From positions 75,479,706-75,543,705 of the forward strand of contig OZ020586.1 in NCBI GenBank assembly GCA_963971535.1: DNA of 64,000 nt, written 5' to 3'. The notes under the pieces were generated by a model. That model ran no database searches. It worked only from the letters and a program-made list of their open reading frames with translations, and was not told the DNA's origin. The position numbers and the translations under genes were made by a program. Below, one piece after another: positions 12,541-63,156 of this stretch (position 1 is the stretch's first letter; every line of letters begins with the position of its first letter). The DNA is from Notolepis coatsorum (lineage: Eukaryota > Chordata > Actinopteri > Aulopiformes > Paralepididae).

Positions 12541-12542
12541 AT

Positions 12543-18867: not shown

Positions 18868-18877
18868 AGGGGGCGGC
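18868..18877 (+). promoter_or_regulatory. Purine-rich tract of BEL B
   Basis: AGGGGGCGGC directly before the 3' LTR. Confidence 0.65.
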
Positions 18878-20265
18878 TGTTGTGAAGGATCAGATTAAAC
18901 CGAATATATATATTTATTTATATATATATATTTAAATAGTGTTTGTATATCGTTTGATATCCCCTGTATATTCCTTGTACAATATGCACTGAATATCCCT
19001 TTAGTCTACTAAACAGCCCATAATAGTTTCATTCTACCATTGGACGAGAACCTGGCGCCAGGTTGCCATACCCCTAGGTTCAAGTTCAATCGTGCCGCCC
19101 AACATGTCGTGGCAAGCCCCGGTTCCGCGTAGGAATACGTCTGGCGAAATACGAATGGTACTATTTGTTCATAGCGCATATATATATGGCGCAAGTAAAG
19201 TAGAACTTTCTTTTAGTCCAGTTCTTTACCCTCCAACAGAGTGACAGACGCGAAGCCTCACCCACGACGCACGTGTGGTGCAGTAAGGCCTACTTGGCCT
19301 CAGAATAGGCATTGAGATATCGTGTGGATTAATAGTTGAATAGTCATAGTTTGGCACTATACCGTCGAGTTGGACGTATTCTATTAAGCTAATAATAGTC
19401 TATTTATGTATGGTGCATCGTTCGGTTAGAGTTCTAAAGTTATCAGTACCCCCATCGTTCCTGACGTTATCTGGACGCTTAACCAGGCTGGGCAGACCCC
19501 TAGTGGTGCTTGCATCCGAGGAGCTCCGGGCCAGGGCGACTGGACCTGTACATTGGATTACTCTACCCGGACGACGGCGAGCCTTCCACGGCTTGGATTA
19601 TGCTTTGGGTGCTTTGATTATTCCATGGATAACGGCCAGTGTTGGAACTACCCCCCGGAGAGGACTCCAGGTGAGACGGCGCTCTACACCAGTGAGGTCG
19701 CCTCACGTCTCTCCGTTGTGGACCGGCAGCTACCGTCCACCAGAGGGTCCAGCTGTATTCGTCTGCGGACCGAGGTTCTGTGGGCACCGTGTTCAAGACT
19801 TTGAATTCTCCCAAGAAATCGTCGGCCAGATGGGATACCGCCAGCGGCTTCTCTAACCCCCCCCTCCTACTGTCTTACAACCAGCGGGACCCCCCCCCCC
19901 CCCCCTTAGTGTATCCAGCTATAATCATTTAAGTACCATCGCTATAGTTCCTAAATATCCAGGTTGTATACTTACTCCCTGCGTAACCAGAGATTGGACA
20001 TTCAATGTTGATTTACCTACGAATACTCATTTGCCATACAAGTGCATATTTCAAATCATAAGTGTAAACAAGTGAACGTTGTATATACCTTTTGCTATAT
20101 TAAATATTCGATTTGTACATTTGTGTGGACTTCGTTTCATCAGGTGGGAAAGTGTTCATCATACTTATATCATGTACTGGATGGCCAGAAGTTAAAGTAC
20201 AAGAGGTAGTGGTATTAAATACCATATCTAACAATACAGTCAGGGAATTGTACCCCTCAGTTACA
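18878..20265 (+). repeat. 3' LTR of BEL B
   Basis: 1,388 bp, TGTTGTGAAG to CAGTTACA, uninterrupted. A C-run near 19880 probably varies in length. Confidence 0.92.
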
Positions 20266-21140
20266 CCCGATATGCCACCTGCCCAGCTAATTAGTCAATA
20301 ATCTCAATAACACCTTCACAATAACACAGCACCTTCATACAATAAAGTGACCACCACAGTAAAATCATCAGATTGGCTACAACAGCAATCATAAAAAAAC
20401 TGTAATATTATCATTATTACAGTACTAGGTTTGGTGGATTGCAGTACATACATATAGTCCTTAGATGGCGATCATTGTCAAGGAATGGGAATTGTCCAAT
20501 TCTCAGAACCATTAATGATCCTACAGGCCAAGGCCAGTTCCAATCAGCCAGTAGGAACTATAGGGACCCGTGAAACCTCGTTCCCAGGTTTATCTCCGTG
20601 AGGGGGAAGATAGCATAACCAAGGTGCAATACTGCCCCCCTGAGGTTTTTAGTGACACCACACACAAACAATACGACCAACTTAAACTAAATTTAAATGT
20701 ATTTGGAAAATCTGGATGTATTTTAAACCATTAAAGATCCCCCAGATGTATTTCAAACTCTTCTATATTGAATACATTTTTTTATAGATATTCTTTTCCA
20801 CCAAATTTTTCAATAAACTACTGGCTTAGCAGAATCTTTACATCTTGCATAGGTGAGTTCACTTCTCACTTACACTTGACTCAAATAAGATTACATCATA
20901 TTGTTGTAATGCTACCATGTCTGAACCAGTGCTCCAGCTTTGTTTACCTTTTTCCACTTCCAATTAGTCTGGACCACAGAACTGAGACTGTGGATATAAG
21001 CTGCTATTGGCCGCCTCTTTCAGTCAGAATTCTCCTCCCCTTCTACTACTGTATCTGTGACACTATTTTATAAGGGCATCGTCCCTGCATCCTGGGCTTA
21101 GCCCTGCCCTGGATGATTGTGATTAGTTTAAAGAAATACA
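20266..21140. other. No gene recognised; unclassified flank
   Basis: AT-rich DNA without a convincing ORF. The stretch at about 21075-21135 (GATGATTGTGATTAGTTTAA and neighbours) looks like a repeat fragment, but I could not assign it. Confidence 0.5.
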
Positions 21141-31412: not shown

Positions 31413-32448
<1,036 letters not shown>

Positions 32449-33026
32449 GTATGTTAAACCAGCTGTAAACAAACTTGCACGGCAACCGTTAATGCCATAT
32501 TTTTTTGGTTTGGATGAAAGCGTTGCTGTCTTTTATGTCGCGTCAAACCTATAAAACTGGAACGAGCGGTTACGTCAAACAACCTAACTGTAAATAAACG
32601 TGCACGTCAACCACGCTATTTTGAGAACGGACGCACGCGCACATGATTTATTGGTTCTCCAGCCCCAGTGAGAAACAACAAGCCTGTTGAGTGTTGAGGA
32701 TTTGCCCCATAATAAACAACACAGCGATATACCACACAGTCAAATCAAGGCTTAGCCTACTTGTTCTATATCTTAAAATGACCTTATGAAATGAATGAAA
32801 TGCGTGCCTATTTAACTGTCATTTCGACGTGTTCGCTGTTCCGTGTCACGGCGACAGGTGGGCACGGCGCATCACCAGCCAGATATATCCCGAGTCAGAC
32901 TCATTCATCTACAATTAAGTGACAGTCGTGAGTGGGCTGGAGGGATTCAATCACAAATGATCAGATAGCTGCAACTGCTGCAAGCGATTGTCAGACTGCC
33001 GGTGTGTGTGCGTGGTGTGTGCTGTT

Positions 33027-38820: not shown

Positions 38821-39005
38821 GTTCTGTATCGTTAGTGGCTTAGCTTGGCATCACACTGCACTATCTCGCGTACGTGCACGCGTACTGAATAAACCACAAA
38901 TGTACCTCTAATACCAGTATTAGTCTGACCACACCCCTCATCAGCTTACCTTCATAAGCAGGTGTGTGGTCACCTGCTCTCCTCCTTCTCGCTTTCACCA
39001 CAAGG
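38821..39005 (+). repeat. Left inverted terminal repeat of the DIRS-like element
   Basis: Begins GTTCTGTATCGTTAGTGGCT. From about 38842 to 39005 it is the near-perfect complement of 43579-43753; the outermost 20-40 bases differ between the two ends, as is usual for DIRS elements. Confidence 0.85.
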
Positions 39006-39261
39006 AAGAAGTGCCTCGGTAGATCCCCACACTTGACACCATGATGGAAGAAATTGGATTAGGAACAGCTTGGGAAACAAGGATACGTTGACATCATATC
39101 TTTATTTTCTCTCTCACTATTTTCGAGAAAATACGGCGATATTGTCTTCGTACTGGAGTGTCTAGAAGATGATGATCATTCTAAAAACCCTCCACCGGTT
39201 TTCGTATTGGGAGCACGCCGCTGCATGCTTCTCAACTGCAGTTCCTTGCTGTGTTTGTTGG

Positions 39262-39690
39262 GGTGAAACCTGTCAGGCCACAGCTGAACTGTCGGACATG
39301 CCGCTGTTGTGAGAAGCGGTGCGTTCCAGGTTGGGTGAGTAGTGTTTGCTGGCGGGCTCCACTTGTCTGTTAGTGCTATGGGGGCTACTTGACAAAGTTT
39401 ATGGAAACCGGCCCCAGGCTAGGGTCCTTTGTTTAGCCGCCTAGGCGACAGACGGCCTTGGTCTGGAGACCATTATAGTTTTAACTAGTGGGCCGCGACC
39501 ATTGACACTGGTGATCCCTGTGTGTTCTGGACGAGTGGATTCTCTCTGTCACCGTGTTAAGGCCCCATCTTTCATATCCAAATGAGAGTATTCCTTCACG
39601 AGGGGATATGTGCATGTAATGTGCGATAGCGGCAGATTCATGTTCAAAGTCAGCTATACAGGCCAGTTGGTACTGTGCTGATTCCGCCGG
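39262..39690 (+). repeat. R1 repeat copy inside the DIRS-like element
   Basis: Matches, inverted, the sequence flanking BEL A (1441-1491 and 10049-10397). It lies about 260 bp inside the left terminal repeat. It may be the leader region of this family, in which case the copy near BEL A is a second family member. Confidence 0.75.
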
Positions 39691-41160
39691 ATGTGGTAGA
39701 GTCACCGTTGTGAAGCGGTGTTGACGTCTTGTTTTCTCTTTTCTCTTAAAAAGTGAGGAGAGGTTCAGAACGGCGGCCTGTCTGGGTGAGTGTTATGTCA
39801 TTGTTTACATGTTCATAGCTTACGGTTAGCCAGTCAGCTGTTAACTGCTGCGTTAGCCTGCTGGATCGCTGCATGGCCTGCTTAAGGCCTACTATTAGCC
39901 AGTCAGCTGTTAGCTGCGGGGCTAGCATGTCGTGGTCGCTAGGTAACGTTAGCTTGCTGCTATGGCCATGGCTGGCGCGGGGTAGCTTAGCTTCTCGCGC
40001 GCCGCCGGGAGCTCGCTTCTGATCGCCGTTAGCTTGATGCTATTCTGTTGAACGTGCTTTGATTTTAACATGTTTTACACTCTTGACCGCGACGTCATCC
40101 TTGACAGGGGATGTTTCGTCGACCCTGCCCTGAGCCTGGACGGGGATTGCGTCAACAAAGAGGACTGTAGCGACTGGTTGGAGCGGCGACGCTGCCCGGA
40201 TCGAACAACACAGGACGGCTGTGTTCTACGGTGTCTTGTGACTGCACTTCGCTGATCTGCGTTCCGGGTAGGAACGGGGTTGACCAGACCTCATAACACG
40301 TCTTCTGGTTTTACTTTGCTAAATGTATTGTGAATAACGGTGTTTTTTCCCAAAACGTGTGTTGTTGCAATGCATTTAGGATACGTTGCGGGTTATGTGT
40401 GAGCTGTTTTTGTCACTGGCAGTTAGCTTCTCCGTGCAGATCGTGATGTATTGATCTGGTTGTTGTGTGAGAAACATCATGGTGTTTATGTGTACCGTGT
40501 ACTCACTACTAAGGCAACTAACCTATGGAGCTATGCTTGGTGACAAGTGAGTAAAAGAATGTTCTTTCTCAGACTGTAATGACAATGGACAGTGTGTTCA
40601 CACATTAACAGGTTTTCCTGTTTTAACTGGCCGTATTGAGGGTAAAATAGGAGGATTGTGTTTTTCCCCCCCGGTTCCCTGGGGACTTTATCACCTCCTA
40701 TCAGACATGTTGTGCATTAATTGTGTCTTTTGTGTGGTAGGGATACGATGTAACTCTTAGCTTGATTGCTGAGGTTGTGCTAAATCTGCTGGAGAAACTT
40801 ATTTCCTAAAGGGAAATTGGTTTGGTTGCTGTCATGTGTGCTTAGCAAGGCCTGTGGTCGATACTAATCAAGAATGATGTATTCTCTCATTGTGAAAAAA
40901 ACGGCGTTCCTCTGTTGAGTGTTTTTGCCATTTTTTGTAGGTGATGATGGGTTGTGTGTGTCATGTGACCTACAACTGGGTTGTACTGGCCACAGAAGCA
41001 CATGTGTATGTTGGACCGGGGTTCTTAGAGCCCTCTCTATTCTGTGTTTTTCCTTAGTAAAAATCAGATAGCAGGTTAGCTCATGCGCTGTGTGGAGCTG
41101 TGAAACGCTTCATAGAGCTGACTATGACTGTGTCATATTCTCTTTTTGTCGTTACGTCGT
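39691..41160 (+). other. Interior of the DIRS-like element, no ORF recognised
   Basis: Contains a tandem pair of TTAGCCAGTCAGCTGTTA words (near 39825 and 39895) and several GTTAGCTT words. A 61-codon frame at 40070-40255 starts with ATG but has no domain I recognise. Confidence 0.45.
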
Positions 41161-41281
41161 ATCATGGGTGTGGGGTCGTAAAGGGGTGAACTGGTAACCT
41201 TTCCTCTCCCCATTGTTCTGTCGGTCAGGGGTACACCCCCTGTCCTTCAAGGTTCCCGTCACGTGGCGGTTCGGCACGTTA

Positions 41282-41282
<1 letters not shown>

Positions 41283-41314
<32 letters not shown>
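41283..41314 (+). repeat. Poly-G run of 32
   Basis: Uninterrupted G tract in the DIRS-like interior. Such runs form G-quadruplexes and are often mis-sized in assemblies. Confidence 0.95.
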
Positions 41315-41315
<1 letters not shown>

Positions 41316-42076
41316 GTTCCTGGTCCCACGGCCTGGTATATTGGGCGTGTGCACCGCAGGAATTCCCCCGCCATAGAGTACGTCACCGTGCGCGTCTCTG
41401 TTGGTAGGACTTCCGTGTGCTGTTCAGGTCCATGTGATGGATCTGTTTTCAGGGGGGGTGGTCAGGGCTCCTCCTCACCAAGCGCCTATTCAGGCCTTCT
41501 GTGAGTTCGGACTCCTTCTTCCATGTGAGGAAGCCTCCATCAGAGTACAGAGCCTTCCTCCTCAGATTGTCAAAGTGAGTGGACCCTCTAGAAGGGTCCT
41601 TTTCTATTGTATGTATATTCGATTCAATTCGTTTATTGAGTGTGTATGGGTTCAGTGCCTCTTCCCCGGAGGCCCTAAAACCAGTTTTTTACATGTTCTC
41701 GTTCATGTCTGGGGGATGATGACGGGATGGATCTGAACATATGTAGTGGGGTCTCACGCCCTTGGGGTGGGCCACCAGGCGCGGTTCGTCCGAACGTCTG
41801 GGTGGCGCCTTCTTTTCATGTTAAGATCAACACGCATATCTGCCCTTCTCCTGGAGTAGGCATGTCGGCGTGGTTAGGGCACGGGACTGGTTCTGGTCAC
41901 GCTGGTCCGGATCAGTTGAACCCGTTGTCCGCCGGGGATGCAGATCTGCTGTTCTGGTACCCTGAGGGACTTGGGCTTTTTTCAGGGGGAAAAATGCCAG
42001 GTCGGTCTGGGTGTCACAGGGTTAAGCGCTATGGAGACCCTGGTTGGGTATGTTTTTACTCAGCACTGTCGTCATG

Positions 42077-42195
42077 GCTTACAGCCATGCCATTCTGTAC
42101 GCGCTCGATCTCGTCGGATCTCGGCCGCTACACAGGTTGGTCCTGGTTAGTACTTGGTTGGGAGACCGCTGGGGAATACCAGGTACGGTGTGCTT
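42077..42195 (+). pseudogene. 5S rRNA-like segment 1
   Basis: 119 bp, close to the 120-nt length of vertebrate 5S rRNA. It matches along its whole length: CTCGATCTCGTCGGATCTCG, CTGGTTAGTACTTGG, GGGAGACC and GGAATACCAGGTA. Several changes fall in the internal promoter (GGCCGCTACACAGG where AAGCTAAGCAGG is expected), so pol III transcription is doubtful. Confidence 0.85.
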
Positions 42196-42856
42196 AGGGG
42201 CTGGTTCTCCATTATTTTTCGCTCCTCTCTCACGCATGGCGAAGAGGGGCCTGTGGGGGTGGTTTTTTTTACCTCCTCTGGTGACCCTGTGCTTCCCGTA
42301 CCGCCAGGCCCGGTCCGAAGTGATGTTTGCGACCCGTAGGCCTGGGTTAACCCTTTTTGGAAACTGAAACACTTGTACTGCGGTATAGCCGGTGTATACC
42401 CGCAGGTGTGTTTTGGAGTTTTTTCTTGAGGGGTTATAGGAACAACCACCGCATTGGGTAACACCGAGGTGGTTGATTCCCTGGTGTGTTGGGGCAGTGT
42501 CAACTCCCGGGTTCACCGTTTGAGGGTGCCCCTGCACGTTCATGACGTCTGCCAATCGTGTCAGCCTTCTCTGCCTCGACCCCTCTGGGTGGGGGTTGTT
42601 AAATGGAGGCTTGGTCATGCAACACCGCCAGCTTACGCTCCTTCCGCCGGGGCGGCTGTGTTCAGCTGTCCCCTCTGGCGCCTGTCTCGTCCGCAGTCTC
42701 CAGGCTAGGGTTAACAGCCTGTTGCCTGGTTTTTCCCCGGTGCGCTGCCTGCTTCCGTTGGTTAACCTTTTTTGTGTGCTTACGGCCATGCTGACTGCCT
42801 GTTCTGCAGGGTCAGTGTGCCAGGCGGTGTACTATTGGGGGGACGGGGCCCGCTCG

Positions 42857-42970
42857 GTTTACGGCCATGCCGACCTGAACACGCCCGATCTCGTCCGATC
42901 TCGGAAGCTAAGCAGGTTCTGGCCTGGTTAGTACTTGGGATACCGCCTGGGATTACCAGGTGCAGTAACT
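42857..42970 (+). pseudogene. 5S rRNA-like segment 2
   Basis: 114 bp. The 5' half is almost exactly 5S (CGCCCGATCTCGTCCGATCT, GGAAGCTAAGCAGG, TGGTTAGTACTTGG). It lacks about 5 bases where 5S has ATGGGAGACC, damaging the C box. Same orientation as segment 1, 780 bp downstream, like neighbouring units of a 5S array. Flanks of the two copies do not look alike. Confidence 0.88.
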
Positions 42971-43457
42971 GGGGGGCCTTTGTCCGAATACGCTGGCGAT
43001 GTGGGGGGCGGGGCACTACGTGCCCACCTGGTGGGGTCTTGATGCTGGCATCATGGACTTCTCCGGGCCCCCATTCCAGGGAGTCCAGTCCTTTTGGTGG
43101 GTCTGGGTCTTCCTTCGCGCTCCGCTGCTACGGCCTTGCCACGGGGTTGGGTTTGCCCTTGACCCCGTGATTCTGGGGGCAGTAACGAGGTTGTTCCTCC
43201 GTTCGTTCCCGGGTGGCATGCGGGTTGTGCGTGTGTGTAGTCGTGGGGTCAAGCCACGGTCTGCTCACCCTGTGCGTTAAGTTGCTTGAGTGCCTCTTCG
43301 CACGGTCGGGTCCGTCGCCTTCCCGTGAAGCCTCTAATAGGGGGGATACCCTCCATTAGGGGGGGTCGGGGGGGCTCGGCCCTCCCTGTTCTGATGGTTT
43401 TGGGGGGCTGTCAGCGGGGTGTATTTGTCAGCCAAGTGGCTCCGCTTGGCCTCCCTT

Positions 43458-43552
43458 GTGCAGTGTGATGCCAAGCTAAGCCACTAACGATACAGAACGT
43501 TAGGTTATGACTATAACCAAGTTCTGTTAGTTAGGGGCGATGCTTGGCATCA
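43458..43552 (+). repeat. Internal complementary region of the DIRS-like element
   Basis: Quasi-palindrome. 43458-43498 complements 38821-38861; 43496-43552 complements 43733-43789; the overlap is AAC at 43496-43498. It equals the complement of a joined right-end/left-end circle junction (…CCTAAC-GTT-CTGTATCG…), as expected for DIRS replication. Confidence 0.85.
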
Positions 43553-43578
43553 GACGGCCGCTGCAGCCCTTGTCCTCA

Positions 43579-43789
43579 CCTTGTGGTGAAAGCTTGGGAA
43601 GGAGGAGAGCAGGTGACCACACACCTGCTTATGAAGGTAAGCTGATGAGGGGTGTGGTCAGACTAATACTGGTATTAGAGGTACATTTGTGGTTTATTCA
43701 GTACGCGTGCACGTACGCGAGATAGTGCAGTGTGATGCCAAGCATCGCCCCTAACTAACAGAACTTGGTTATAGTCATAACCTAACGTT
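43579..43789 (+). repeat. Right inverted terminal repeat of the DIRS-like element
   Basis: Ends GGTTATAGTCATAACCTAACGTT at 43789 (GTT last). The inner part complements the left repeat. Confidence 0.85.
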
Positions 43790-44485: not shown

Positions 44486-44948
44486 ATTTCAAATAAATTC
44501 GTTTCAAGAGTTGGAACATTAAAAGGTCAAGCCTGACACCAAAGTTAGAAAGAACTTCCTGTTTCAATCCACTTTTCACAATCAGTCAGTTTGGCACAGT
44601 TCTTCTTAAATAACAAAGCCTCTAGACTAAACAACACAACTTTTATTTAATTTGCAAAAGCCTTTCCATTAAAACAACATTCTGAAGGGTGGGCGTGGAG
44701 GGGGGGGGGGGGGTTAATAGCCAAGCAGAACACACCCTCTGATCTCTCTTCAAAGAGGCCCCCAGTCCCAGTGGTTTTTGGTGCTCTTACAAAACAACGT
44801 CTTAAAAACCCATCATCCCAGTTACGTAATGGCGTTGTTAGCGGGACTGCCCCGCCGCGATCGCCGGCAGGCGTGGTGTTGTCTTAATGTGGAAGTAATT
44901 ACCCCCCCTTAACTCACTTTATTTTCTCCCGTCTTCTCTTTTGAGAGA
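44486..44948. other. No gene recognised
   Basis: AT-rich DNA with a G-run at about 44700-44712; no ORF of note. Confidence 0.4.
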
Positions 44949-47900
44949 GTTTGATTAAAGTGAGTGTAACGTTTGATTAAAGCGAGTGCAAAGTTTGATT
45001 AAAGTAAGTGTAAAGTTTGATTAAAGCGAGTGTAAAGTCTGATTAAAGTGAGTGTAAAGTTTGATTAAAGTGAGTGTAAAGTCTGATTAAAGTGAGTGTA
45101 AAGTTTGATTAAAGTGAGTGTAAAGTCTGATTAAAGCGAGTGTAAAGTCTGATTAAAGTGAGTGTAAAGTTTGATTAAAGTGAGTGTAACGTTTGATTAA
45201 AGCGAGTGTAAAGTTTGATTAAAGTAAGTGTAAAGTTTGATTAAAGCGAGTGTAAAGTCTGATTAAAGTGAGTGTAAAGTTTGATTAAAGTGAGTGTAAA
45301 GTCTGATTAAAGCGAGTGTAAAGTCTGATTAAAGCGAGTGTAAAGTCTGATTAAAGCGAGTGTAAAGTCTGATTAAAGTGAGTGTAAAGTCTGATTAAAG
45401 TGAGTGTAAAGTCTGATTAAAGCGAGTGTAAAGTCTGATTAAAGTGAGTGTAAAGTCTGATTAAAGCGAGTGTAAAGTCTGATTAAAGCGAGTGTAAAGT
45501 CTGATTAAAGCGAGTGTAAAGTCTGATTAAAGCGAGTGTAAAGTCTGATTAAAGCGAGTGTAAAGTCTGATTAAAGCGAGTGTAAAGTCTGATTAAAGCG
45601 AGTGTAAAGTCTGATTAACGTGAGTGTAAAGTCTGATTAAAGCGAGTGTAAAGTCTGATTAAAGCGAGTGTAAAGCGAGTGTAAAGTCTGATTAAAGCGA
45701 GTGTAAAGTCTGATTAAAGCGAGTGTAAAGTCTGATTAACGTGAGTGTAAAGTCTGATTAAAGTGAGTGTAAAGTCTGATTAAAGCGAGTGTAAAGTCTG
45801 ATTAAAGCGAGTGTAAAGTCTGATTAAAGCGAGTGTAACGTCTGATTAAAGCGAGTGTAAAGTCTGATTAAAGCGAGTGTAAAGTCTGATGATTAAAGCG
45901 AGTGTAAAGTCTGATTAAAGCGAGTGTAAAGTCTGATTAACGTGAGTGTAAAGTCTGATTAAAGCGAGTGTAAAGTCTGATTAAAGCGAGTGTAAAGTCT
46001 GATTAAAGCGAGTGTAAAGTCTGATTAAAGCGAGTGTAAAGTCTGATTAAAGCGAGTGTAACGTCTGATTAAAGCGAGTGTAAAGTCTGATTAAAGCGAG
46101 TGTAAAGTCTGATGATTAAAGCGAGTGTAAAGTCTGATTAAAGCGAGTGTAAAGTCTGATTAACGTGAGTGTAAAGTCTGATTAAAGCGAGTGTAAAGTC
46201 TGATTAACGTGAGTGTAAAGTCTGATTAAAGCGAGTGTAAAGTCTGATTAAAGCGAGTGTAAAGTCTGATTAAAGCGAGTGTAAAGTCTGATTAAAGCTA
46301 GTGTAAAGTCTGATTAAAGCGAGTGTAAAGTCTGATTAAAGCGAGTGTAAAGTCTGATTAACGTGAGTGTAAAGTCTGATTAAAGCGAGTGTAAAGTCTG
46401 ATTAAAGCGAGTGTAAAGTCTGATTAAAGCGAGTGTAAAGTCTGATTAAAGCGAGTGTAAAGTCTGATTAAAGCGAGTGTAAAGTCTGATTAAAGCGAGT
46501 GTAAAGTCTGATTAAAGCGAGTGTAAAGTCTGATTAACGTGAGTGTAAAGTCTGATTAAAGTGAGTGTAAAGTCTGATTAAAGCGAGTGTAAAGTCTGAT
46601 TAAAGCGAGTGTAAAGTCTGATTAAAGCGAGTGTAACGTCTGATTAAAGCGAGTGTAAAGTCTGATTAAAGCGAGTGTAAAGTCTGATGATTAAAGCGAG
46701 TGTAAAGTCTGATTAAAGCGAGTGTAAAGTCTGATGATTAAAGCGAGTGTAAAGTCTGATTAAAGCGAGTGTAAAGTCTGATTAACGTGAGTGTAAAGTC
46801 TGATTAAAGCGAGTGTAAAGTCTGATTAAAGCGAGTGTAAAGTCTGATTAAAGCGAGTGTAAAGTCTGATTAAAGCGAGTGTAAAGTCTGATTAAAGCGA
46901 GTGTAACGTCTGATTAAAGCGAGTGTAAAGTCTGATTAAAGCGAGTGTAAAGTCTGATAATTAAAGCGAGTGTAAAGTCTGATTAAAGCGAGTGTAAAGT
47001 CTGATTAACGTGAGTGTAAAGTCTGATTAAAGCGAGTGTAAAGTCTGATTAACGTGAGTGTAAAGTCTGATTAAAGCGAGTGTAAAGTCTGATTAAAGCG
47101 AGTGTAAAGTCTGATTAAAGCGAGTGTAAAGTCTGATTAAAGCGAGTGTAAAGTCTGATTAAAGCGAGTGTAAAGTCTGATTAACGTGAGTGTAAAGTCT
47201 GATTAAAGTGAGTGTAAAGTCTGATTAAAGCGAGTGTAAAGTCTGATTAAAGCGAGTGTAAAGTCTGATTAAAGCGAGTGTAACGTCTGATTAAAGCAAG
47301 TGTAAAGTCTGATTAAAGCGAGTGTAAAGTCTGATGATTAAAGCGAGTGTAAAGTCTGATTAAAGCGAGTGTAAAGTCTGATTAACGTGAGTGTAAAGTC
47401 TGATTAAAGCGAGTGTAAAGTCTGATTAAAGCGAGTGTAAAGTCTGATTAAAGCGAGTGTAAAGTCTGATTAAAGCGAGTGTAAAGTCTGATTAAAGCGA
47501 GTGTAACGTCTGATTAAAGCGAGTGTAAAGTCTGATTAAAGCGAGTGTAAAGTCTGATGATTAAAGCGAGTGTAAAGTCTGATTAAAGCGAGTGTAAAGT
47601 CTGATTAACGTGAGTGTAAAGTCTGATTAAAGCGAGTGTAAAGTCTGATTAACGTGAGTGTAAAGTCTGATTAAAGCGAGTGTAAAGTCTGATTAAAGCG
47701 AGTGTAAAGTCTGATTAAAGCGAGTGTAAAGTCTGATTAAAGCTAGTGTAAAGTCTGATTAAAGCGAGTGTAAAGTCTGATTAAAGCGAGTGTAAAGTCT
47801 GATTAACGTGAGTGTAAAGTCTGATTAAAGCGAGTGTAAAGTCTGATTAAAGCGAGTGTAAAGTCTGATTAAAGCGAGTGTAAAGTCTGATTAAAGCGAG

Positions 47901-49254
47901 TGTAAAGTCTGATTAAAGCGAGTGTAAAGTCTGATTAAAGCGAGTGTAAAGTCTGATTAACGTGAGTGTAAAGTCTGATTAAAGTGAGTGTAAAGTCTGA
48001 TTAAAGCGAGTGTAAAGTCTGATTAAAGCGAGTGTAAAGTCTGATTAAAGCGAGTGTAACGTCTGATTAAAGCGAGTGTAAAGTCTGATTAAAGCGAGTG
48101 TAAAGTCTGATGATTAAAGCGAGTGTAAAGTCTGATTAAAGCGAGTGTAAAGTCTGATGATTAAAGCGAGTGTAAAGTCTGATTAAAGCGAGTGTAAAGT
48201 CTGATTAACGTGAGTGTAAAGTCTGATTAAAGCGAGTGTAAAGTCTGATTAAAGCGAGTGTAAAGTCTGATTAAAGCGAGTGTAAAGTCTGATTAAAGCG
48301 AGTGTAAAGTCTGATTAAAGCGAGTGTAACGTCTGATTAAAGCGAGTGTAAAGTCTGATTAAAGCGAGTGTAAAGTCTGATGATTAAAGCGAGTGTAAAG
48401 TCTGATTAAAGCGAGTGTAAAGTCTGATTAACGTGAGTGTAAAGTCTGATTAAAGCGAGTGTAAAGTCTGATTAACGTGAGTGTAAAGTCTGATTAAAGC
48501 GAGTGTAAAGTCTGATTAAAGCGAGTGTAAAGTCTGATTAAAGCGAGTGTAAAGTCTGATTAAAGCTAGTGTAAAGTCTGATTAAAGCGAGTGTAAAGTC
48601 TGATTAAAGCGAGTGTAAAGTCTGATTAACGTGAGTGTAAAGTCTGATTAAAGCGAGTGTAAAGTAGCGAGTGTAAAGTCTGATTAAAGCGAGTGTAAAG
48701 TCTGATTAAAGCGAGTGTAAAGTCTGATTAAAGCGAGTGTAAAGTCTGATTAAAGTGAGTGTAAAGTCTGATTAAAGCGAGTGTAAAGTCTGATTAAAGC
48801 GAGTGTAAAGTCTGATTAAAGCGAGTGTAACGTCTGATTAAAGCGAGTGTAAAGTCTGATTAAAGCGAGTGTAAAGTCTGATGATTAAAGCGAGTGTAAA
48901 GTCTGATTAAAGCGAGTGTAAAGTCTGATTAACGTGAGTGTAAAGTCTGATTAAAGCGAGTGTAAAGTCTGATTAAAGCGAGTGTAAAGTCTGATTAAAG
49001 CGAGTGTAAAGTCTGATTAAAGCTAGTGTAAAGTCTGATTAAAGCGAGTGTAAAGTCTGATTAAAGCGAGTGTAAAGTCTGATTAAAGCGAGTGTAAAGT
49101 CTGATTAAAGCGAGTGTAAAGTCTGATTAACGTGAGTGTAAAGTCTGATTAAAGTGAGTGTAAAGTCTGATTAAAGCGAGTGTAAAGTCTGATTAAAGCG
49201 AGTGTAAAGTCTGATTAAAGCGAGTGTAAAGTCTGATTAAAGCGAGTGTAAAGT
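44949..49254 (+). repeat. 22-bp satellite array, about 195 units
   Basis: Monomer GTCTGATTAAAGCGAGTGTA plus AA. The first units read GTTTGATTAAAGTGAGTGT. Recurrent variants are AACGTGAG for AAAGCGAG, TGTAACG for TGTAAAG, GATGATTAAAG (3-bp insertion) and AGCTAG. They return in the same order about 1.42-1.45 kb apart (for example 46687 and 46735 versus about 48110 and 48157), so there is higher-order structure. No ORF. Confidence 0.98.
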
Positions 49255-49890
49255 CCATTACCACACACACAGCCACTGAAGTGCTTCCTTGCCGTCGCTC
49301 CCGGAGCCGCTGCTGTTTCAGAGGTTTGTGGGTTCCCTCTCCGGGAGCCGCCTCGCTCCAACTTCATCTAGCATTATGTGTTTTTGTTATGTTATAAGTC
49401 CCCCCCACCCCCACCACAGAAAGAGACACTCTTTGGAGTGCACGGCTGTTAAGATCATGTTACTAAGTGGTCGAGGGGCTCAATTCCCGTCGGCCCAAGC
49501 TGTATTTTAGGTGATGGTGTAATGTGTATAGGTGAAACACAGGGGGGCGGGGGTCTCACTTTGGACACCCGTGAAGCAGTTTGGGCTGTTTAAAAAAATA
49601 TATATAAAAAAGAGGAATGCCTTAATAACATAGCAGGTACAGATTATAACCCCCCCCCCCATGAATTGAGAGGATCAAGGCGTAATAATGAATTAGTATT
49701 GGATTATTGTAATGTGGATCATGCTGAATAACGCTGACAGATTGCGGCTGCAAGTCCCGTTTCATCTGTACACTCCTTAAGAACCAGGGCACCGGGATGT
49801 GGAGCGATTAATCCTCTGGAACATCCACCACCACTCGCAGCTCCCCCCCCCCACCCCCAGGCCAGCTCTTAGTATGAGTATTTCATATTT
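49255..49890. other. No gene recognised
   Basis: Moderate GC, a C-run near 49650 and a 73-codon frame at 49289 without a known domain. Confidence 0.4.
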
Positions 49891-54689: not shown

Positions 54690-56124
54690 TGTAACTGAGG
54701 GGTACAATTCCCTGACTGTATTACTAGATATGATACTTACTACCACTACCTTTGTACTTAATATTCGGCCACCCAGTACACGGCATAAATATATTATCAT
54801 GAACACTCTCACGTAGATGAAACGGATCCAACACAAATGTACGAATTAGAAACAGGTCTTTATTTCCTACACAGCGATGGTGTGTAGAATAAGCACTTAA
54901 TCACTTAATTACATTTATGAATTGAAATAGTATGCACTTTTATGGCAAGGAGTATTCGTCGGTATATCAATAGATAATGTCCAATCTCTGAAGGCGCAGG
55001 TGGTAAATATACGACCTGGAATAGTTAAGGAATAACAGCAATGATACTTTAATGATTATAGGCTGGATACACTAGAGGGGGTTAATCCGGTCGCTTGTAA
55101 GCCGACAGGAGTAGGAGGGGGGGGGGGGTAGAATCCAGCTGCCTCGTCCGGCCAAGGGTATCCCAGGTGAACCCACTGTAGTGCCGTTCAATGCGCCGGC
55201 GATCCTTGGACCACAGATGAAAGCAGTTGGACTCTTTGTGGGCCGGCTCTCTCCGGTCCACGGGGGAGAGATGTGGAGAGACCTCGTCTTGCAGAGCGTC
55301 TCCTCACCTTGCGTCCTCTCCAGGGGGGGGGGGTTCCAACACACGGTAGTGTCGGGGGTCTTTATCCATAGAATAATCAAAGTATCCAAAGCATAATCCG
55401 TGCCTGGGAAGGCGGGCTGTCGTCGGTAGAATAATCCGGTATACAGGTCCACTCGCTCGTCGGCTCTGGGGCTCCTCGGGTGCAGCTTCACATAGGGTCA
55501 ACCACCCTGGGTAAGCAGCCAGTTCTCTGCCCGAAACGATGGGGTACTGACTACGGTAGTATTCTCACCGCACGAAGCACTATATATTAACAGACTATTA
55601 TTAGCTTAATAGACTACGTCCAACTCGACGATATAGTGCCAAATATGACTATTCAAATATTAATATACACGATGTCTCAATACCGATGGTAGGCCGAACT
55701 TGGCCTTACTCCCACACGTGGCATCGCGGGGAGGCTTTACGTCTGTGACTCTATTGGAGGGTAAGAAACTGGACTGAAAAGAAAGTCCTACTTTAGTAGC
55801 GCAGTATATATACGCACTATGAACAAATAGTCCCATTAGTGGTGCGGTAGCCAAATTCCTACGCGGAACTAGGACTTGTTCGTACATGTCGAGCGGTACG
55901 TTTGAACTGGGTCTGAGGGGTATGGCAGCCTGGCACCAAGGTCTCGACCAATAGTAGAATGGAGACTATTATGGGATGTTCAGTAGGCTAGAATGGATAT
56001 TCAATGCATATTGTACAAGGAATATACAAGGGATATCAGGGAATATTAGAGAATATACAAATACAATTAAATATATATATATAAATAAATATATATATTC
56101 GGTTTAATCTGGCCCTTCACAACA
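54690..56124 (-). repeat. 3' LTR of BEL C
   Basis: 1,435 bp, same termini as the other copies. Confidence 0.95.
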
Positions 56125-56135
56125 GCCACCCCCTG
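56125..56135 (-). promoter_or_regulatory. Purine-rich tract of BEL C
   Basis: Minus strand CAGGGGGTGGC directly before the 3' LTR, as in A. Confidence 0.7.
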
Positions 56136-56233
56136 AATAGGTCCCAGACCTAATCAGTTAAACGGAGACAGATTAATCGCGTTGTCTATTTACACATAAG
56201 GGTTTGCTGTAGGGGTCAGTCAACTTCACAAAG

Positions 56234-59200
56234 TCATAGGGTTGTAGGGTCATGGTCATCATCGATTGTGTCTGGGAGTCGAGGCAGTTCTATGAGCCTT
56301 GCCACGGGACGGGTGTAAGTGCGACCCTGGACGAGCACTTCAGCTGCTCTGACCTTGCCGTCGGCACCGGTGATCACTTTGCTTACGCGGCCGGCCGGCC
56401 ACATAGCTCTGGGCAGTGATTGATCAATAATCATGACGACTGTTCCTTCTGTCAAATTGTCTCTCTCCTTTACCCACTTCTGGCGGGTCTGTAGAGACGG
56501 TAGGTAGTGCAGTAGGAAACTGTTCCAAAACTTGTCTGCTAATACTTGGCTGTACCTCCACATTCGTCGGCCGTTCGCTTCTTCAGGCCGGTACATTGTC
56601 TGTGGTAATGCAGGATCTAGCCGCCCCATCAGGAGTGTGTTGGGGTCTGCGGAGATGACATCCTCATCGTATTTCTTTATAATCAGCTCTGTGACCTTGT
56701 GTCGGCTGTTCAATACGATCGGGTATTTAATGTCATCCGGTAGATTGGGGGCTCTGCGTAGGCGACCACCCACTCTGATGAGGGTGTGAGCGTCGCTCTC
56801 GGGGGCCAGGTGAATTAATCTGCTGTCGGATGGGACGGGCTTTCCTCCCTGTAGACAGGCCAATTCATCGGGGAACGAGTCTCTCTGGGCTCGCTGCAGT
56901 AGAAGCAATTCTGCTTCCTCGTAGTTAGCTGCTGACATATCAGCGGGGGACTTGCACTCCGGGTGGTACCGCAGGAATGTTCTTTGTTGTGCACTCTCTA
57001 TGGACGTGCAATCGTTTATGTTAGGGTCGGTGGAGGCTACGGTGCTCAATCCACAGAACACAGACTTCTTAATTTCCACCTCCTCTGGACTTGCTTCCCT
57101 CGGGATAGGCATGGGCCACTGTCCTTCCGGGAGTCTTAGGAATGCGGGGCCGTCACTGTAGACATTGCGACGGGTGAGGTCATCCAGGGGCATCCCCCGG
57201 GTGATGACGTCAGCTGGGTTCTGTTTTGTATCAACGTAGCGCCACTCTGTTTCTCCGGTTAACTCTTCGGTTAAGTCTTGAATCTCGGTGACTCTGACTC
57301 CCACGAAGACTTTGTACTTGCATGAGTCCGATTTGATCCAGGCGAGTACCGTCGTGGAATCTGACCACAGGATTGTTCTAGACACCGGTATGGTGAGCTC
57401 ACGTTGGATGAGCGTGGCTAGGTGCGCTCCGGCTAGGGCTGCGCAGAGCTCTAGACGTGGGATAGATTGTTGCTTGCGTGGGGCTATTCTCGAGCGGGCG
57501 AGGACAAATGCTGTGTAGATCTCTCCCCCCTGGTCTTGGGCCCGCAAGTAGGCTACTGATCCGTATGCGACCTCTGAGGCGTCACTGAAGACGTGTAAGT
57601 CCATTTTACATGTCTCTGGCCTCACCGTGGGTGGGAAGTAGCTTCGGCGCATATTAACGCCTGGGAGTGAGTGGAGCTCCATCTCCCACTCTCTCCAGGT
57701 GGATGCAAGGTGTGCGGGAATGGGGTCGTCCCAGCCCTGGTCCTTGTCCCACAATGCTCGTACAATCATTTTTGCCCTGGTGGTGTACGGTAGAATACAT
57801 CCTAGCGGGTCATATTGTCGGGCGAGTGTTGTGTACACACTCCGTCTGGTGGTCGGCGCCGCCGCCGGCCTTCCCTGCTCCGTAGTCAGGGGCTTGTGTC
57901 TGTAGTGAAGCGAATCTGTTTTGAATCGCCACACCAATCCCAGGGTCATCTCCTGGGCTTCTCCCGGGATTGTAGCCATCCAGGTCTCGCTGCTGGCTGC
58001 CTTGTCCTCGGAGGAGAGGCTGCGCAGTACTTGCGGATCGCTGCTGGCCCACTGCCTGAGATCAAAGCCGCCTTTGATCAATGAGGCGCGGAGTTTAATC
58101 AGGAGAGCCTCGGCTTCTTCCTGGGTTGAAAGGCTTTGTAGACAGTTGTCTACGTAGAAGCTGTTCTTTACGCTGTGTCGGACCTCTTCGTCCGCTGCTG
58201 GGTCCTCTGCTACATGTTTCTGTAGTGCAAATGTCGCACAGCAGGGGCTGCACGTCGTTCCGAAGGGGAGGACTTCCCATTGGTAGATGGCTGGGTGCTC
58301 ATCTCCTGGCTTCTCTCTCCATAGGAACCGTAACAGGGGCTTGTCCGCCTCTACTAATCTCACCTGCAGGAACATTCCTTTAATGTCCCCGCTGATGGCC
58401 ACCTTTTCCTGGCGGAAGCGGAGTAGAACGCCGAGTAGGGAGGGGCCGAGTGTGGGACCGGGCAGTAACTCTTTATTCAGATTTTGGGATCCGATCTGGT
58501 AGCTGCAGTTAAATACTATGCGGTCTTTACCGTTGTGATGGACCTTGTGGTGGGGCACGTACCACGATTCAGTGGTCTGATCAGCCTCTTTAATGTCCAT
58601 CTTTGTGACGTGTCCCGCTGTGATGAGCTTCTCAATCTCAGCGCGGTATACACTCTCTTGGGCGGGTTTCTTGGCTAAGCGCCGCTCCGTGTTCAGCAGG
58701 TACCGTTCTGTGGCGTCTGTCTTGGCGTGGAAAGTAGGCATTCCTTCTCGCCGCAGGAGTGGCGTGGCGTATCTCAACACGCCGTTGACCGGGACTCTCT
58801 TGGTCCCTGTCTCGAGGAGGTGAATTGCGTAAATGTCATCTTTAGAGCGAATGTCTTTCTTTCCGTTCTTAAAGGGCATTTGTTCCAAGGTCCATAGCCG
58901 CTCTACGTGTTGCAGGAGTGCGGTTTCTCCCTCTGTGACTCGGGAGTGGAGACATCTAGTGGCTGTACTTCGGTTGAGAGATTTGGCGAGCGGGCCTTGG
59001 AGAGTCCATCCCAAACGGGTCTCGACTGCTGCAGGACAGCCTCGGGGTCCGGTATGAACCCGGTCTATCGGGACAATGAGGTCTGCATGGTCGGAGCCTA
59101 TCAACAGGGTCGGCATAGCATTGTCTATGAGCGGGATCGGTAACTTGCGCAGATGTGCATATTTCTCCATCAGCTTGGCGACGGGGTATGTGTACCGCGA

Positions 59201-61654
59201 CAGTCCTATTTCTTGGCTGGTGAAAGCGTCTGCAATCTGGTACCGTCGCTCAGGCTGGCCGCTTGCTGCGATAGAGAATGAGACATTCTCGCCCTTTATC
59301 GTCTTCAAATCTCGTCTTATTGTCCGAATTGTCATTTGGGTTTCGCTTCCCCGCAGCCCTAGCTGGGCCGCAGCGGAGGCGAGCAGCAGGGTCTTCTCTG
59401 ACCCGTCATCGAGGACGGCGTAAGTGTCCAGGACTTTATTCTGGTAGCTTAGTGTCACACGCACTACTTTTAGGAGTACTCGGGCTCCACTGCTGCTGGC
59501 GGGATCGATGTACATGACGCTCGCTTTGCGGCTGGATGGTGCAGGTGAAGGGCGCCGTCTGTTACTGTCGTGAAGTATGTCCAGATGGGCTCCATCGCAC
59601 TTGGTGCACCTTTTCTTTAAGCAGCATTCGGCTGCCATGTGTGAGCGCGCACAGCGAAAACAGCGCTTGTTGGACTTTATCCATTGACCTGCTTCCTCCG
59701 CGTTCAGCTTGGGGAAGGAGTCACATTGCGCTAGCCAGTGTTCTTTCTCACAGTAGGGGCACACTATCTTCCACTTCTCCGTTCTGGAGGGGGTACTGTG
59801 GCTCCTGCTGCTCGGTACTGACTCCGATTGGTGCATCACAGTCACCGATCTTCTTCCATCATTTAGTCGTCTGGTTCCTTCTCTGGAGCCAGGGGTGCTC
59901 CGTCCGAATGTATCTAGCCGTAGGCTGCTGACTTCTCTCGCCAGGAAGTCTGCTAGATCGAGGAGGTTCGGTTCGGGGCCATTCGGGTCTCTGTGGTCCC
60001 TCTGCCGCCTAAAGCGCTCCTGACGAGCGGGCGGCAGCTTCTCCAGGATCCTTTCCACATTTGAGTTGGCGTAAAGTTCATACTTCCCCTTCTCTCTTTG
60101 CGCTCCCAACATCCCTACCAGGGACTGCACTCTGATGGACAGGTCGTCCAGTGCTCGATTGTCTATTGCTGGGGGTAAGCGGTCGATGTGTCGGATCTCC
60201 TGGATCACGTAATCCCATATGCGCCCATACCTCTGGTCCAATGCTACCAGCGCTGCTGTGTATGGGGTGGTGGAAGTCGCGTAGGCGAGCGCTATATTAT
60301 GTGCGCGGGGCACCTTTAAGTGCTGCAGTAGGATGGCGTATTTGTGGCGTTCATCCAATACATCCACCAACATGGTCTCCAGACACATGCGGAGTTCTGT
60401 ATACTGGGCCCGGTTCTCTTGGGTGAAGTCGGGTACCATAGGCGTGCCAATGTATGACGCTGACTGTGGATACATCGGCGAGCGTTGGGGGAGAGGCCTC
60501 CTAGGCGAGTCTCCTCCCGCTCCTTGGTATGGGCTGGTACCGGCAGTGTACCATGGCCCGCTTGTCCAGGTGCTGTTCCTCGGTGCGGGTCGTGCGTCGT
60601 GCTCACCCGTGTATAGAGTCGGGGGTCTGTAGCGCAGCTCCGCGGGAGTATAGCCTGGGCTGTACCGGACCTCCTGGTCCGGTAGAGTACTGTGCTGTCT
60701 TCGGGCGCGGTTCTCCTCCTCTTCCTCTTCGTCTTCAGTTAGGTCATCCAGTGCTTGTAGTCTCTGGTTTAGCCTCTCCACAGGATATGCTGCTCCTTCC
60801 CGGTTGCTAGGTCTCGCTTGGACCGGTGGGGGGAGGTGGTCTGTGGGGGGTATAGACCTCGTCTGTTGGTCAAGTTCAGGGTTGTTTACTCGGCTAGGGG
60901 ATGCCGCCCTGGAGGTGTGTCTAGACGAGTTCCTGGAGCCTCTGGCGGAGGGAGAGGGTGTTGTCCGTCTGATCAGCTGTTCTATTAGTTGCGCTTGCTG
61001 TCTGTCGCGCTCTGCGTCCCGTAGAGCACCAGCAGCTGCTCGCTGGCTGTCTGCTCGGTCTCGGGCCACATTCTCTTCCATCTGAATGCGTCTTATTTCC
61101 AGGCGTATGTGCTCTTCTTCGCTCCGTTGCTGTAGCTGCAATCGATCGCGTTCACCCTGGAGTCTATCGCGTTCAGTAGAGGCTTTCAGGCTGACGAGGA
61201 ATGCCTGCTGTAGGGTCCTCTCTGCCTCGCTGGGAGAAGGCGGTTGTATAGGGGAGCCTTCCCTCGGGGTACTCCTTGCGGAGCCTTGGAGCTCTATCTC
61301 CACGGTGCTCTCCCCGTCTTCTTCCGTGCCGAGTTCTCTCTCGGTAGCGTTGTATTCCTCCCGGGACTCATCGGGGACTACTTCTTCAGTACTGGCGGGG
61401 TGTGAAGTCATGTCTGGTTCCCACTGGTCCCCACCGTGAACTTGGTCAGTTACATTAGAGCCCGTAGGGGCCTCTATGGTCGGGGTAGTCTGGGCGTTGG
61501 GGTTAGACATACTTTTACTTTCTAGTTTTACCGCGTTTACTGTTAGTAGAAGACTAGGTTGTTGACTGACAGCGTAAGCCTCTAAGTACTGAGGGAGCCG
61601 TCGTTCGCGCTGCGGGCGTTGGTTAGGAGGATCGTTTCGTGGAGTGTTCATCAT
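56234..61654 (-). CDS. BEL C gag-pro-RT-RNaseH polyprotein, integrase core missing
   Basis: ATGATGAACACTCC at 61654 matches the start in A and B; 1,806 codons without a stop. Gag has an Arg/Glu coiled-coil stretch near residues 165-235, with ERDRLQGERDRLQ. Zinc knuckles lie near residue 630 (CPYCEKEHWLAQC, CFRCARSHMAAEC, CTKCDGAHLDILH), the protease DDGSEK near 747 and RT FYVDNCLQS near 1165. RNase H (FSDAS, WSDSTTVLAWIK, NPADVITRG) lies near 1350-1480. After KKYDEDV (near 1665) the sequence passes through ISAD straight to PNTLLMGRL. The integrase zinc motif and the entire DDE core present in copy B are gone, in frame. Gag, protease, RT and RNase H motifs all look intact. Confidence 0.93.
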   Translation of the reverse strand: MMNTPRNDPPNQRPQRERRLPQYLEAYAVSQQPSLLLTVNAVKLESKSMSNPNAQTTPTIEAPTGSNVTDQVHGGDQWEPDMTSHPASTEEVVPDESREEYNATERELGTEEDGESTVEIELQGSARSTPREGSPIQPPSPSEAERTLQQAFLVSLKASTERDRLQGERDRLQLQQRSEEEHIRLEIRRIQMEENVARDRADSQRAAAGALRDAERDRQQAQLIEQLIRRTTPSPSARGSRNSSRHTSRAASPSRVNNPELDQQTRSIPPTDHLPPPVQARPSNREGAAYPVERLNQRLQALDDLTEDEEEEEENRARRQHSTLPDQEVRYSPGYTPAELRYRPPTLYTGEHDARPAPRNSTWTSGPWYTAGTSPYQGAGGDSPRRPLPQRSPMYPQSASYIGTPMVPDFTQENRAQYTELRMCLETMLVDVLDERHKYAILLQHLKVPRAHNIALAYATSTTPYTAALVALDQRYGRIWDYVIQEIRHIDRLPPAIDNRALDDLSIRVQSLVGMLGAQREKGKYELYANSNVERILEKLPPARQERFRRQRDHRDPNGPEPNLLDLADFLAREVSSLRLDTFGRSTPGSREGTRRLNDGRRSVTVMHQSESVPSSRSHSTPSRTEKWKIVCPYCEKEHWLAQCDSFPKLNAEEAGQWIKSNKRCFRCARSHMAAECCLKKRCTKCDGAHLDILHDSNRRRPSPAPSSRKASVMYIDPASSSGARVLLKVVRVTLSYQNKVLDTYAVLDDGSEKTLLLASAAAQLGLRGSETQMTIRTIRRDLKTIKGENVSFSIAASGQPERRYQIADAFTSQEIGLSRYTYPVAKLMEKYAHLRKLPIPLIDNAMPTLLIGSDHADLIVPIDRVHTGPRGCPAAVETRLGWTLQGPLAKSLNRSTATRCLHSRVTEGETALLQHVERLWTLEQMPFKNGKKDIRSKDDIYAIHLLETGTKRVPVNGVLRYATPLLRREGMPTFHAKTDATERYLLNTERRLAKKPAQESVYRAEIEKLITAGHVTKMDIKEADQTTESWYVPHHKVHHNGKDRIVFNCSYQIGSQNLNKELLPGPTLGPSLLGVLLRFRQEKVAISGDIKGMFLQVRLVEADKPLLRFLWREKPGDEHPAIYQWEVLPFGTTCSPCCATFALQKHVAEDPAADEEVRHSVKNSFYVDNCLQSLSTQEEAEALLIKLRASLIKGGFDLRQWASSDPQVLRSLSSEDKAASSETWMATIPGEAQEMTLGLVWRFKTDSLHYRHKPLTTEQGRPAAAPTTRRSVYTTLARQYDPLGCILPYTTRAKMIVRALWDKDQGWDDPIPAHLASTWREWEMELHSLPGVNMRRSYFPPTVRPETCKMDLHVFSDASEVAYGSVAYLRAQDQGGEIYTAFVLARSRIAPRKQQSIPRLELCAALAGAHLATLIQRELTIPVSRTILWSDSTTVLAWIKSDSCKYKVFVGVRVTEIQDLTEELTGETEWRYVDTKQNPADVITRGMPLDDLTRRNVYSDGPAFLRLPEGQWPMPIPREASPEEVEIKKSVFCGLSTVASTDPNINDCTSIESAQQRTFLRYHPECKSPADMSAANYEEAELLLLQRAQRDSFPDELACLQGGKPVPSDSRLIHLAPESDAHTLIRVGGRLRRAPNLPDDIKYPIVLNSRHKVTELIIKKYDEDVISADPNTLLMGRLDPALPQTMYRPEEANGRRMWRYSQVLADKFWNSFLLHYLPSLQTRQKWVKERDNLTEGTVVMIIDQSLPRAMWPAGRVSKVITGADGKVRAAEVLVQGRTYTRPVARLIELPRLPDTIDDDHDPTTL

Positions 61655-61703
61655 AGGCCATTTCAATATTAATAACACTATATTAATATTACACTAATTA
61701 CCC

Positions 61704-61720
61704 TCCGGCTCGAAGGACCA
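61704..61720 (-). promoter_or_regulatory. Primer-binding site of BEL C (tRNA-Tyr)
   Basis: On the plus strand this reads TCCGGCTCGAAGGACCA, that is the tRNA-Tyr 3' end itself. Confidence 0.9.
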
Positions 61721-61722
61721 AT

Positions 61723-63156
61723 TGTAACTGAGGGGTACAATTCCCTGACTGTATTACTAGATATGATACTTACTACCACTACCTTTGTACTTAATATTCG
61801 GCCACCCAGTACACGGCATAAATATATTATCATGAACACTCTCACGTAGATGAAACGGATCCAACACAAATGTACGAATTAGAAACAGGTCTTTATTTCC
61901 TACACAGCGATGGTGTGTAGAATAAGCACTTAATCACTTAATTACATTTATGAATTGAAATAGTATGCACTTTTATGGCAAGGAGTATTCGTCGGTATAT
62001 CAATAGATAATGTCCAATCTCTGAAGGCGCAGGTGGTAAATATACGACCTGGAATAGTTAAGGAATAACAGCAATGATACTTTAATGATTATAGGCTGGA
62101 TACACTAGAGGGGGTTAATCCGGTCGCTTGTAAGCCGACAGGAGTAGGAGGGGGGGGGGGGTAGAATCCAGCTGCCTCGTCCGGCCTAGGGTATCCCAGG
62201 TGAACCCACTGTAGTGCCGTTCAATGCGCCGGCGATCCTTGGACCACAGATGAAAGCAGGTGGACTCTTTGTGGGCCGGCTCTCTCCGGTCCACGGGGGA
62301 GAGATGTGGAGAGACCTCGTCTTGCAGAGCGTCTCCTCACCTTGCGTCCTCTCCAGGGGGGGGGGTTCCAACACACGGTAGTGTCGGGGGTCTTTATCCA
62401 TAGAATAATCAAAGTATCCAAAGCATAATCCGTGCCTGGGAAGGCGGGCTGTCGTCGGTAGAATAATCCGGTATACAGGTCCACTCGCTCGTCGGCTCTG
62501 GGGCTCCTCGGGTGCAGCTTCACATAGGGTCAACCACCCTGGGTAAGCAGCCAGTTCTCTGCCCGAAACGATGGGGTACTGACTACGGTAGTATTCTCAC
62601 CGCACGAAGCACTATATATTAACAGACTATTATTAGCTTAATAGACTACGTCCAACTCGACGATATAGTGCCAAATATGACTATTCAAATATTAATATAC
62701 ACGATGTCTCAATACCGATGGTAGGCCGAACTTGGCCTTACTCCCACACGTGGCATCGCGGGGAGGCTTTACGTCTGTGACTCTATTGGAGGGTAAGAAA
62801 CTGGACTGAAAAGAAAGTCCTACTTTAGTAGCGCAGTATATATACGCACTATGAACAAATAGTCCCATTAGTGGTGCGGTAGCCAAATTCCTACGCGGAA
62901 CTAGGACTTGTTCGTACATGTCGAGCGGTACGTTTGAACTGGGTCTGAGGGGTATGGCAGCCTGGCACCAAGGTCTCGACCAATAGTAGAATGGAGACTA
63001 TTATGGGATGTTCAGTAGGCTAGAATGGATATTCAATGCATATTGTACAAGGAATATACAAGGGATATCAGGGAATATTAGAGAATATACAAATACAATT
63101 AAATATATATATATAAATAAATATATATATTCGGTTTAATCTGGCCCTTCACAACA
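61723..63156 (-). repeat. 5' LTR of BEL C
   Basis: 1,434 bp, the same length as the BEL A 5' LTR. Confidence 0.95.

Follow-up and report, generated by a model that had tools for sequence, protein, structure and literature searches.

A young non-autonomous DIRS1-like retrotransposon family of Notolepis coatsorum with two 5S rRNA sequences, probably captured by template switching

Layout and interior of the element

We analysed a stretch of 64,000 nucleotides from the fish Notolepis coatsorum (C7:75479706-75543705 in a 3.42-Gb assembly), referred to as the window, in which a DIRS1-like retrotransposon occupies positions 38821-43789 (4,969 bp). The element has the complete end layout of DIRS1-like elements, shows no detectable protein domain and carries two sequences resembling 5S ribosomal RNA (5S) in its interior. 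Other loci read from the same genome are designated Lnnn. The element is composed of the following features:

38821..38842, + strand: left terminus, divergent inverted repeat of 22 bp starting with GTT, forming part of the 41 bp that recur in the left internal complementary region (ICR)
38843..38988, + strand: left conserved inverted terminal repeat (ITR), 146 bp, matching the complement of 43598-43743 at every position
39279..39669, + strand: interior module of about 390 bp, also present (86%) at window 10383-10050 and 1492-1441
41695..41696: site at which the window copy is without 433 bp found in L002; L018 and L009 have similar sequence
42077..42194, + strand: 5S-like sequence no. 1, sense, putatively the older capture (Rfam RF00001, 66.1 bits, gathering score 38)
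42195..42856, + strand: spacer between both 5S, 662 bp
42857..42971, + strand: 5S-like sequence no. 2, sense, putatively the younger capture (Rfam RF00001, 79.9 bits, gathering score 38)
43458..43498, + strand: left ICR, 41 bp
43496..43552, + strand: right ICR, 57 bp exact, with the circular junction AAC at 43496-43498
43504..43506: GTT in the right ICR, matching the target of a nested insertion seen in another copy
43598..43743, - strand: right conserved ITR
43744..43764, - strand: right divergent inverted repeat
43765..43789, + strand: right extension, 25 bp, ending with GTT, hardly varying among the 14 copies whose right terminus is complete

The 41-bp left edge (38821-38861) is the exact reverse complement of 43458-43498 and the 57-bp right edge (43733-43789) that of 43496-43552, both ICRs together spanning 95 bp (43458-43552) and having the AAC in common, and GTT is present at each end of the element (38821-38823 and 43787-43789). 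With uniform base composition, a sequence of 4,969 bp would be expected to contain about 2.6e-18 exact inverted pairs of 41 bp and 6e-28 of 57 bp. The ITRs (38821-39005 versus 43579-43764) are identical at 178 of 187 aligned positions and contain an exact core of 146/146 bp, while the right extension, reading TTGGTTATAGTCATAACCTAACGTT, is complementary to the right ICR only. Since ICR and extension stand at the right, as in fish DIRS1 elements, we take the + strand as the putative RNA strand. The terminal repeats are inverted and are not the split direct repeats defining Ngaro-like tyrosine recombinase (YR) retrotransposons (PMC9210276). The window values, i.e. 22 bp of divergent ITR, 146 bp of conserved ITR, 25 bp of right extension and ICRs of 41 + 57 bp, are similar to those of fish DIRS1-like elements, which are alike in the GTT start and the AAC junction: GaDIRS1 (19/148/27, ICR 46-56, AAC) and GaDIRS2 (21/144/26, ICR 38-57, AAC) from stickleback and TnDIRS1a from Tetraodon (21/146/27, ICR 36-57, AAC), the latter ending with GAT and not with GTT (PMC3266345). 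In the window copy the 146-, 41- and 57-bp repeats are all without mismatch, suggesting a recent move that took place after the loss of coding capacity, conversion between the repeats being the alternative explanation. A genome search with the ITR 38821-39005 returned no match, not even the query itself, very common words being skipped, and is counted neither way; viral contigs contained no match to an exact 28-bp pattern from the ITR.

A Pfam scan of the six X-masked frames of the window copy detected no reverse transcriptase (RT), RNase H, methyltransferase (MT) or recombinase, the single match having an E-value of 0.2 and lying under its cut-off. Neither the three sense frames of the complete copy L002 nor those over 4.0 kb of L023 gave a Pfam match. 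As no match to gag, RT/RNase H (MT) or tyrosine recombinase was obtained, we regard the window element as a non-autonomous DIRS derivative instead of an autonomous member. These data agree with a preliminary description of this DNA, which had seen no RT, RNase H or recombinase and had reported the inverted terminal repeats, the 95-bp internal region, the shared AAC and the GTT at both ends, all of which we recovered at a level far beyond chance; its assignment to DIRS-like elements is borne out by the ITRs, the overlapping ICRs and the right extension.

On the minus strand, an open frame of 250 codons (42082-42831) lies between both 5S and has 236 codons in L002, 250 in L021 and 227 in L036. 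A protein search with its part 42082-42789 (236 codons) found no relatives, and a stop-to-stop frame of 250 codons was reached in 3/200 dinucleotide shuffles of the interior and in 0/300 of 41900-43100. On the putative RNA strand the interior (39006-43457) has more G than C and more T than A, the AT skew going down to -0.40 in the last part; this skew is clear, but it is matched by 2/114 and mirrored by 3/114 of the 1-kb windows outside the element and was not used as evidence.

Copies of the family and insertion at GTT

A genome search with the 662-bp spacer as query revealed at least 40 scored places (window included) among 337 candidates, all with 95-100% identity and located on many contigs, two of them being in the same orientation 7.2 kb apart (C7:186745143 and C7:186752363). 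The number is a lower bound because known copies, i.e. L002 and a nested one in L036, are not among them. In a content-blind sample of 25 stretches of 10 kb (20 on C7 and one each on C1, C4, C13, C30 and C44), relatives of the element are present in three stretches (L002, L009 and L018), accounting for 9,587 of 250,000 bases, and one of these, L002, is a complete copy of 5,339 bp with both 5S. Eight two-5S copies diverge by 1.2% on average and by 1.9% at most in the spacer and the following sequence, which suggests that the family is young.

The interior of L002 corresponds to that of the window copy end to end, with two blocks at 96% and 99% identity, and overlapping ICRs are present as well. 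This bears on the possibility that an autonomous DIRS element had its coding interior replaced after insertion, so that the window copy never moved without genes. The interior is indeed partly mosaic, its 390-bp module being found elsewhere beside a LINE-like (long interspersed nuclear element) reading frame. A replacement within the window copy would, however, have to account for the same interior in L002, itself free of Pfam domains in its sense frames, and for the spacer in 39 other scored places, making this explanation scarcely conceivable.

We examined the right ends of 16 copies (window, L002, L021 and L023-L035) and found a full right terminus in 14, with L026 and L034 being incomplete. 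Twelve of the 14 end with GTT, the two others with GCT (L028) and GGT (L030), and the 25-bp extension is conserved even where the 211-bp right terminus as a whole is only 73-87% identical to that of the window. The flanks differ among the 14 copies, though those of L027 and L033 start alike; both begin with AACCCTTTCAC and perhaps represent insertions into one repeat family. A full left terminus is present in four elements (window, L002, the L018/L022 element described below and the nested copy), and all four begin with GTT.

The nested copy shows what an insertion looks like at a known site. At L034 (1395-1500) and L036 (4880-4990), a whole 5.3-kb copy sits within the right ICR of another copy, GAACGTTAG being followed by GTTCTG at one junction and CGTT by ATGACTATAACC at the other. 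The uninterrupted site reads AACGTTAG-GTT-ATGACTATAACC, as in the window from 43496 onwards. The insertion thereby has one GTT per end and no other duplication, which is the trinucleotide insertion of DIRS1-like elements and the pattern expected when a tyrosine recombinase uses a circle junction with GTT.

Origin, order of gain and role of the 5S sequences

The preliminary description had proposed a large non-autonomous DIRS derivative and named a single copy lacking related termini elsewhere as the finding that would speak against it; the layout, the lack of coding capacity and the many copies with related termini sustain this proposal, but it missed the most unusual feature of the element, i.e. 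the two 5S captures. Relative to L018, which is 80-92% identical in this region, both 5S are insertions with flanks continuous to within a few nucleotides, and neither insertion shows a target duplication or an A-tail when compared with L018 and with single-5S copies. Eight loci (L023-L030) contain no. 1 only, and both 5S are found in the window, L002, L021 and L031-L035. The site of no. 2 was inspected in 29 of the 40 places and is filled in 21 (four with a remnant of about 50 nt only) and empty in 8; no. 1 was looked at in 15 of these 29. The single-5S loci were picked on purpose among the lowest-identity matches, so that the proportions given should not be read as frequencies.

A tree of 18 rows with the 5S bases excluded, midpoint rooting and L009 left out groups the nine two-5S rows (100/98), with the single-5S rows placed around them and L018 outermost. 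Two changes explain the presence of the 5S on this tree, which is the minimum possible. L009, a relative with 72-79% identity, is without the stretch in question (element 2913-4491) and is therefore silent on the gain. Compared with a provisional vertebrate 5S reference, no. 1 differs at 18-22 of 118 positions and no. 2 at 9-13 of 106-119 positions, the lower number in no. 2 being in keeping with the order of the gains. The sequence comparison fits a gain of no. 1 followed by a gain of no. 2 at two sites. The reverse course, according to which the 5S-bearing form is ancestral and L018-type copies lost both 5S precisely, draws on the fact that one outgroup locus was read and L009 is silent; it requires two near-exact excisions at the ends of the 5S, where the tree needs two gains only and places L018 outermost under its midpoint root, and we consider it very improbable.

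We know of no direct data on template switching by a DIRS reverse transcriptase. Judged from the joints, the 5S were most likely captured by template switching onto 5S rRNA, because both insertions are near full length and in sense orientation, as expected if the RT leaves the element RNA, enters 5S rRNA at or close to its 3' end, copies it and goes back. Short interspersed nuclear elements (SINEs) of the SINE3 type are present in fish, and a retroposed SINE is expected to show duplications and a tail. That both 5S are separate retroposed copies, either SINE3-like or LINE-driven, would accord with the existence of 5S-derived SINEs (PMC5753468, PMC10886601) and of LINE-1/5S chimaeras (PMC13174262). 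No target duplication, tail or other SINE part is seen at the 5S sites, however, and the near-full-length sense sequences at both sites contrast with the typically truncated, antisense 5S in LINE-1 chimaeras (PMC13174262), so that we regard retroposition as unlikely. Like the DIRS family, the 5S/LINE-1 and U6/LINE-1 chimaeras join a small cellular RNA to a retroelement during reverse transcription; they carry the RNA at the 5' end and are single insertions (PMC13174262), whereas the 5S of the DIRS family are internal and inherited by a spreading family.

Site variation in 5S no. 1 is similar to that of its surroundings (14/118 versus 106/1096 sites, p 0.42), and in no. 2 it is higher (12/106 versus 33/1110 sites, p 0.0003), for which the CpG content could be responsible. 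With a provisional human 5S as reference, box IE is unchanged in both 5S of the window, box A is changed at 5/15 positions in no. 1 and 2/15 in no. 2, and box C at 3/18 and 5/18 positions, respectively. Many loci have deletions within no. 2. That of the window copy removes 4 nt and is absent in this form from the 7 other two-5S copies aligned, deletions of 13-16 nt are present in L044, L047, L050 and L051 and of 13 nt in L032 and L033, and a deletion of about 70 nt is common to L048, L052, L053 and L054 (4 of the 14 loci of the second inspection set), which points to the probable multiplication of a copy whose 5S was already broken. We read the 5S pieces as passengers because of the absence of extra conservation, the changed boxes A and C and the deletions at many loci.

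A different role is known from the non-autonomous long terminal repeat (LTR) elements Cassandra and Ajax, in which 5S acts as a promoter (PMC10886601, PMC10853983). These resemble the DIRS family in being protein-free, in carrying 5S-derived sequence and in depending on a partner; their 5S is located in the LTRs with the promoter motifs kept (PMC10853983, PMC10886601), whereas the two 5S of the DIRS family are interior, gained in order and unconserved. Two captures in one lineage, both in sense orientation, and the intact box IE might point to 5S being kept here as an internal RNA polymerase III promoter or as a needed part of the RNA. The 5S are, however, placed in the 3' half of the interior outside the repeats, and not in terminal repeats with conserved polymerase III boxes as in Cassandra-like (TRIMp3) elements. 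Box comparison, site variation and deletions do not support a promoter role, rendering a Cassandra-like function distinctly unlikely.

Relatives, surroundings and significance for DIRS elements

A DIRS-type relative with related but other edges is formed by L022:836-2467 (- strand) together with L018:6530-10000. It has the non-coding 3' half of the family without 5S and contains a 1.2-kb insert, a putative DNA transposon. In L022 the left terminus is followed, in place of gag, by an uninterrupted frame of 544 codons, which matches no Pfam family and no sequence at E 1e-5 among 7,996 candidates scored; its position makes it a candidate gag, which suggests that L018/L022 represents a second, gag-only type of non-autonomous DIRS. 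Nine further open reading frames of sampled loci searched with Pfam contained no recombinase, and the RTs present among them are unlinked to DIRS ends.

In its surroundings, the window contains three LTR elements, i.e. one of putative BEL/Pao type (1492-10045), a second such element adjoining it (approximately 10390-20266) and a third of the same kind on the - strand (54690-63158) having LTRs of 99.8% identity. The first splits the other copy of the 390-bp module (1441-1492 and 10050-10383), which adjoins the LINE-like reading frame. A 22-bp satellite array of about 4.3 kb (44948-49255) lies 1.2 kb from the DIRS element, and a (CTAT)260 array with 99% matches covers 1.04 kb (31413-32452).

Among LTR and LINE elements, non-autonomous forms are well documented, and LARD-type elements are large non-autonomous LTR elements of several kb, non-coding and mobilised in trans. 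They are similar to the window family in size, non-coding state and the mobilisation in trans presumed here, and differ in having LTR ends and an integrase where the family has DIRS ends (for the term LARD see PMC8498967). Fish DIRS1-like elements have 5.3-5.9 kb and contain gag, RT/RH/MT and YR (PMC3266345), whereas the elements described here have 5.0-5.3 kb, no domain found and two internal 5S. Among the open-licence literature matches listed, no paper deals with a DIRS family lacking protein genes or with 5S inside a DIRS element; Repbase was outside this scope and unnamed entries may exist.

Taken together, the element very probably belongs to an abundant, young non-autonomous DIRS1-like family that has no detectable protein genes and has captured two 5S sequences by RT template switching, its mobilisation presumably occurring in trans with borrowed enzymes. 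In the proposed model, a coding DIRS relative would supply the reverse transcriptase that copies the element RNA, the ICR would allow the ends to be joined at AAC/GTT into a circle, and this circle would be inserted at GTT by the recombinase of the partner. On two occasions the RT would have switched from the element RNA to 5S rRNA and back, and the 5S pieces would then have spread along with the element as passengers.

Several points weigh against this model. The coding partner with these ends that the preliminary description had predicted was not seen, with no genome search using RT, MT or YR profiles having been made, and an insertion at GTT whose empty site is known was observed once, in a different copy of the family. 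Full left termini were read in the four elements mentioned only, L021 being without it and L023 matching from about base 64. The 5S-free outgroup consists of one locus, L018, which contains inserts and differs in its edges. Concerning the capture, 5S no. 2 stops approximately 3-4 nt before the mature 3' end, shared bases blur the exact joints, and the 5S sequences used for comparison were provisional references.

Beyond the family itself, we consider it somewhat more probable than its opposite that the genome harbours an entire class of DIRS elements, protein-free or gag-only, which live off coding relatives and parallel the LARD and TRIM elements, and which would be reverse-transcribed where 5S rRNA or 5S particles are at hand, whole 5S having been copied in more than once. 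The family suggests DIRS ends being sufficient for mobility in trans and provides an in-genome example of insertion at a GTT site. The two ordered captures of a host RNA are relevant to the mechanism and the location of DIRS reverse transcription and, if our interpretation is true, the family would allow the template switches of a DIRS reverse transcriptase to be read from sequence.

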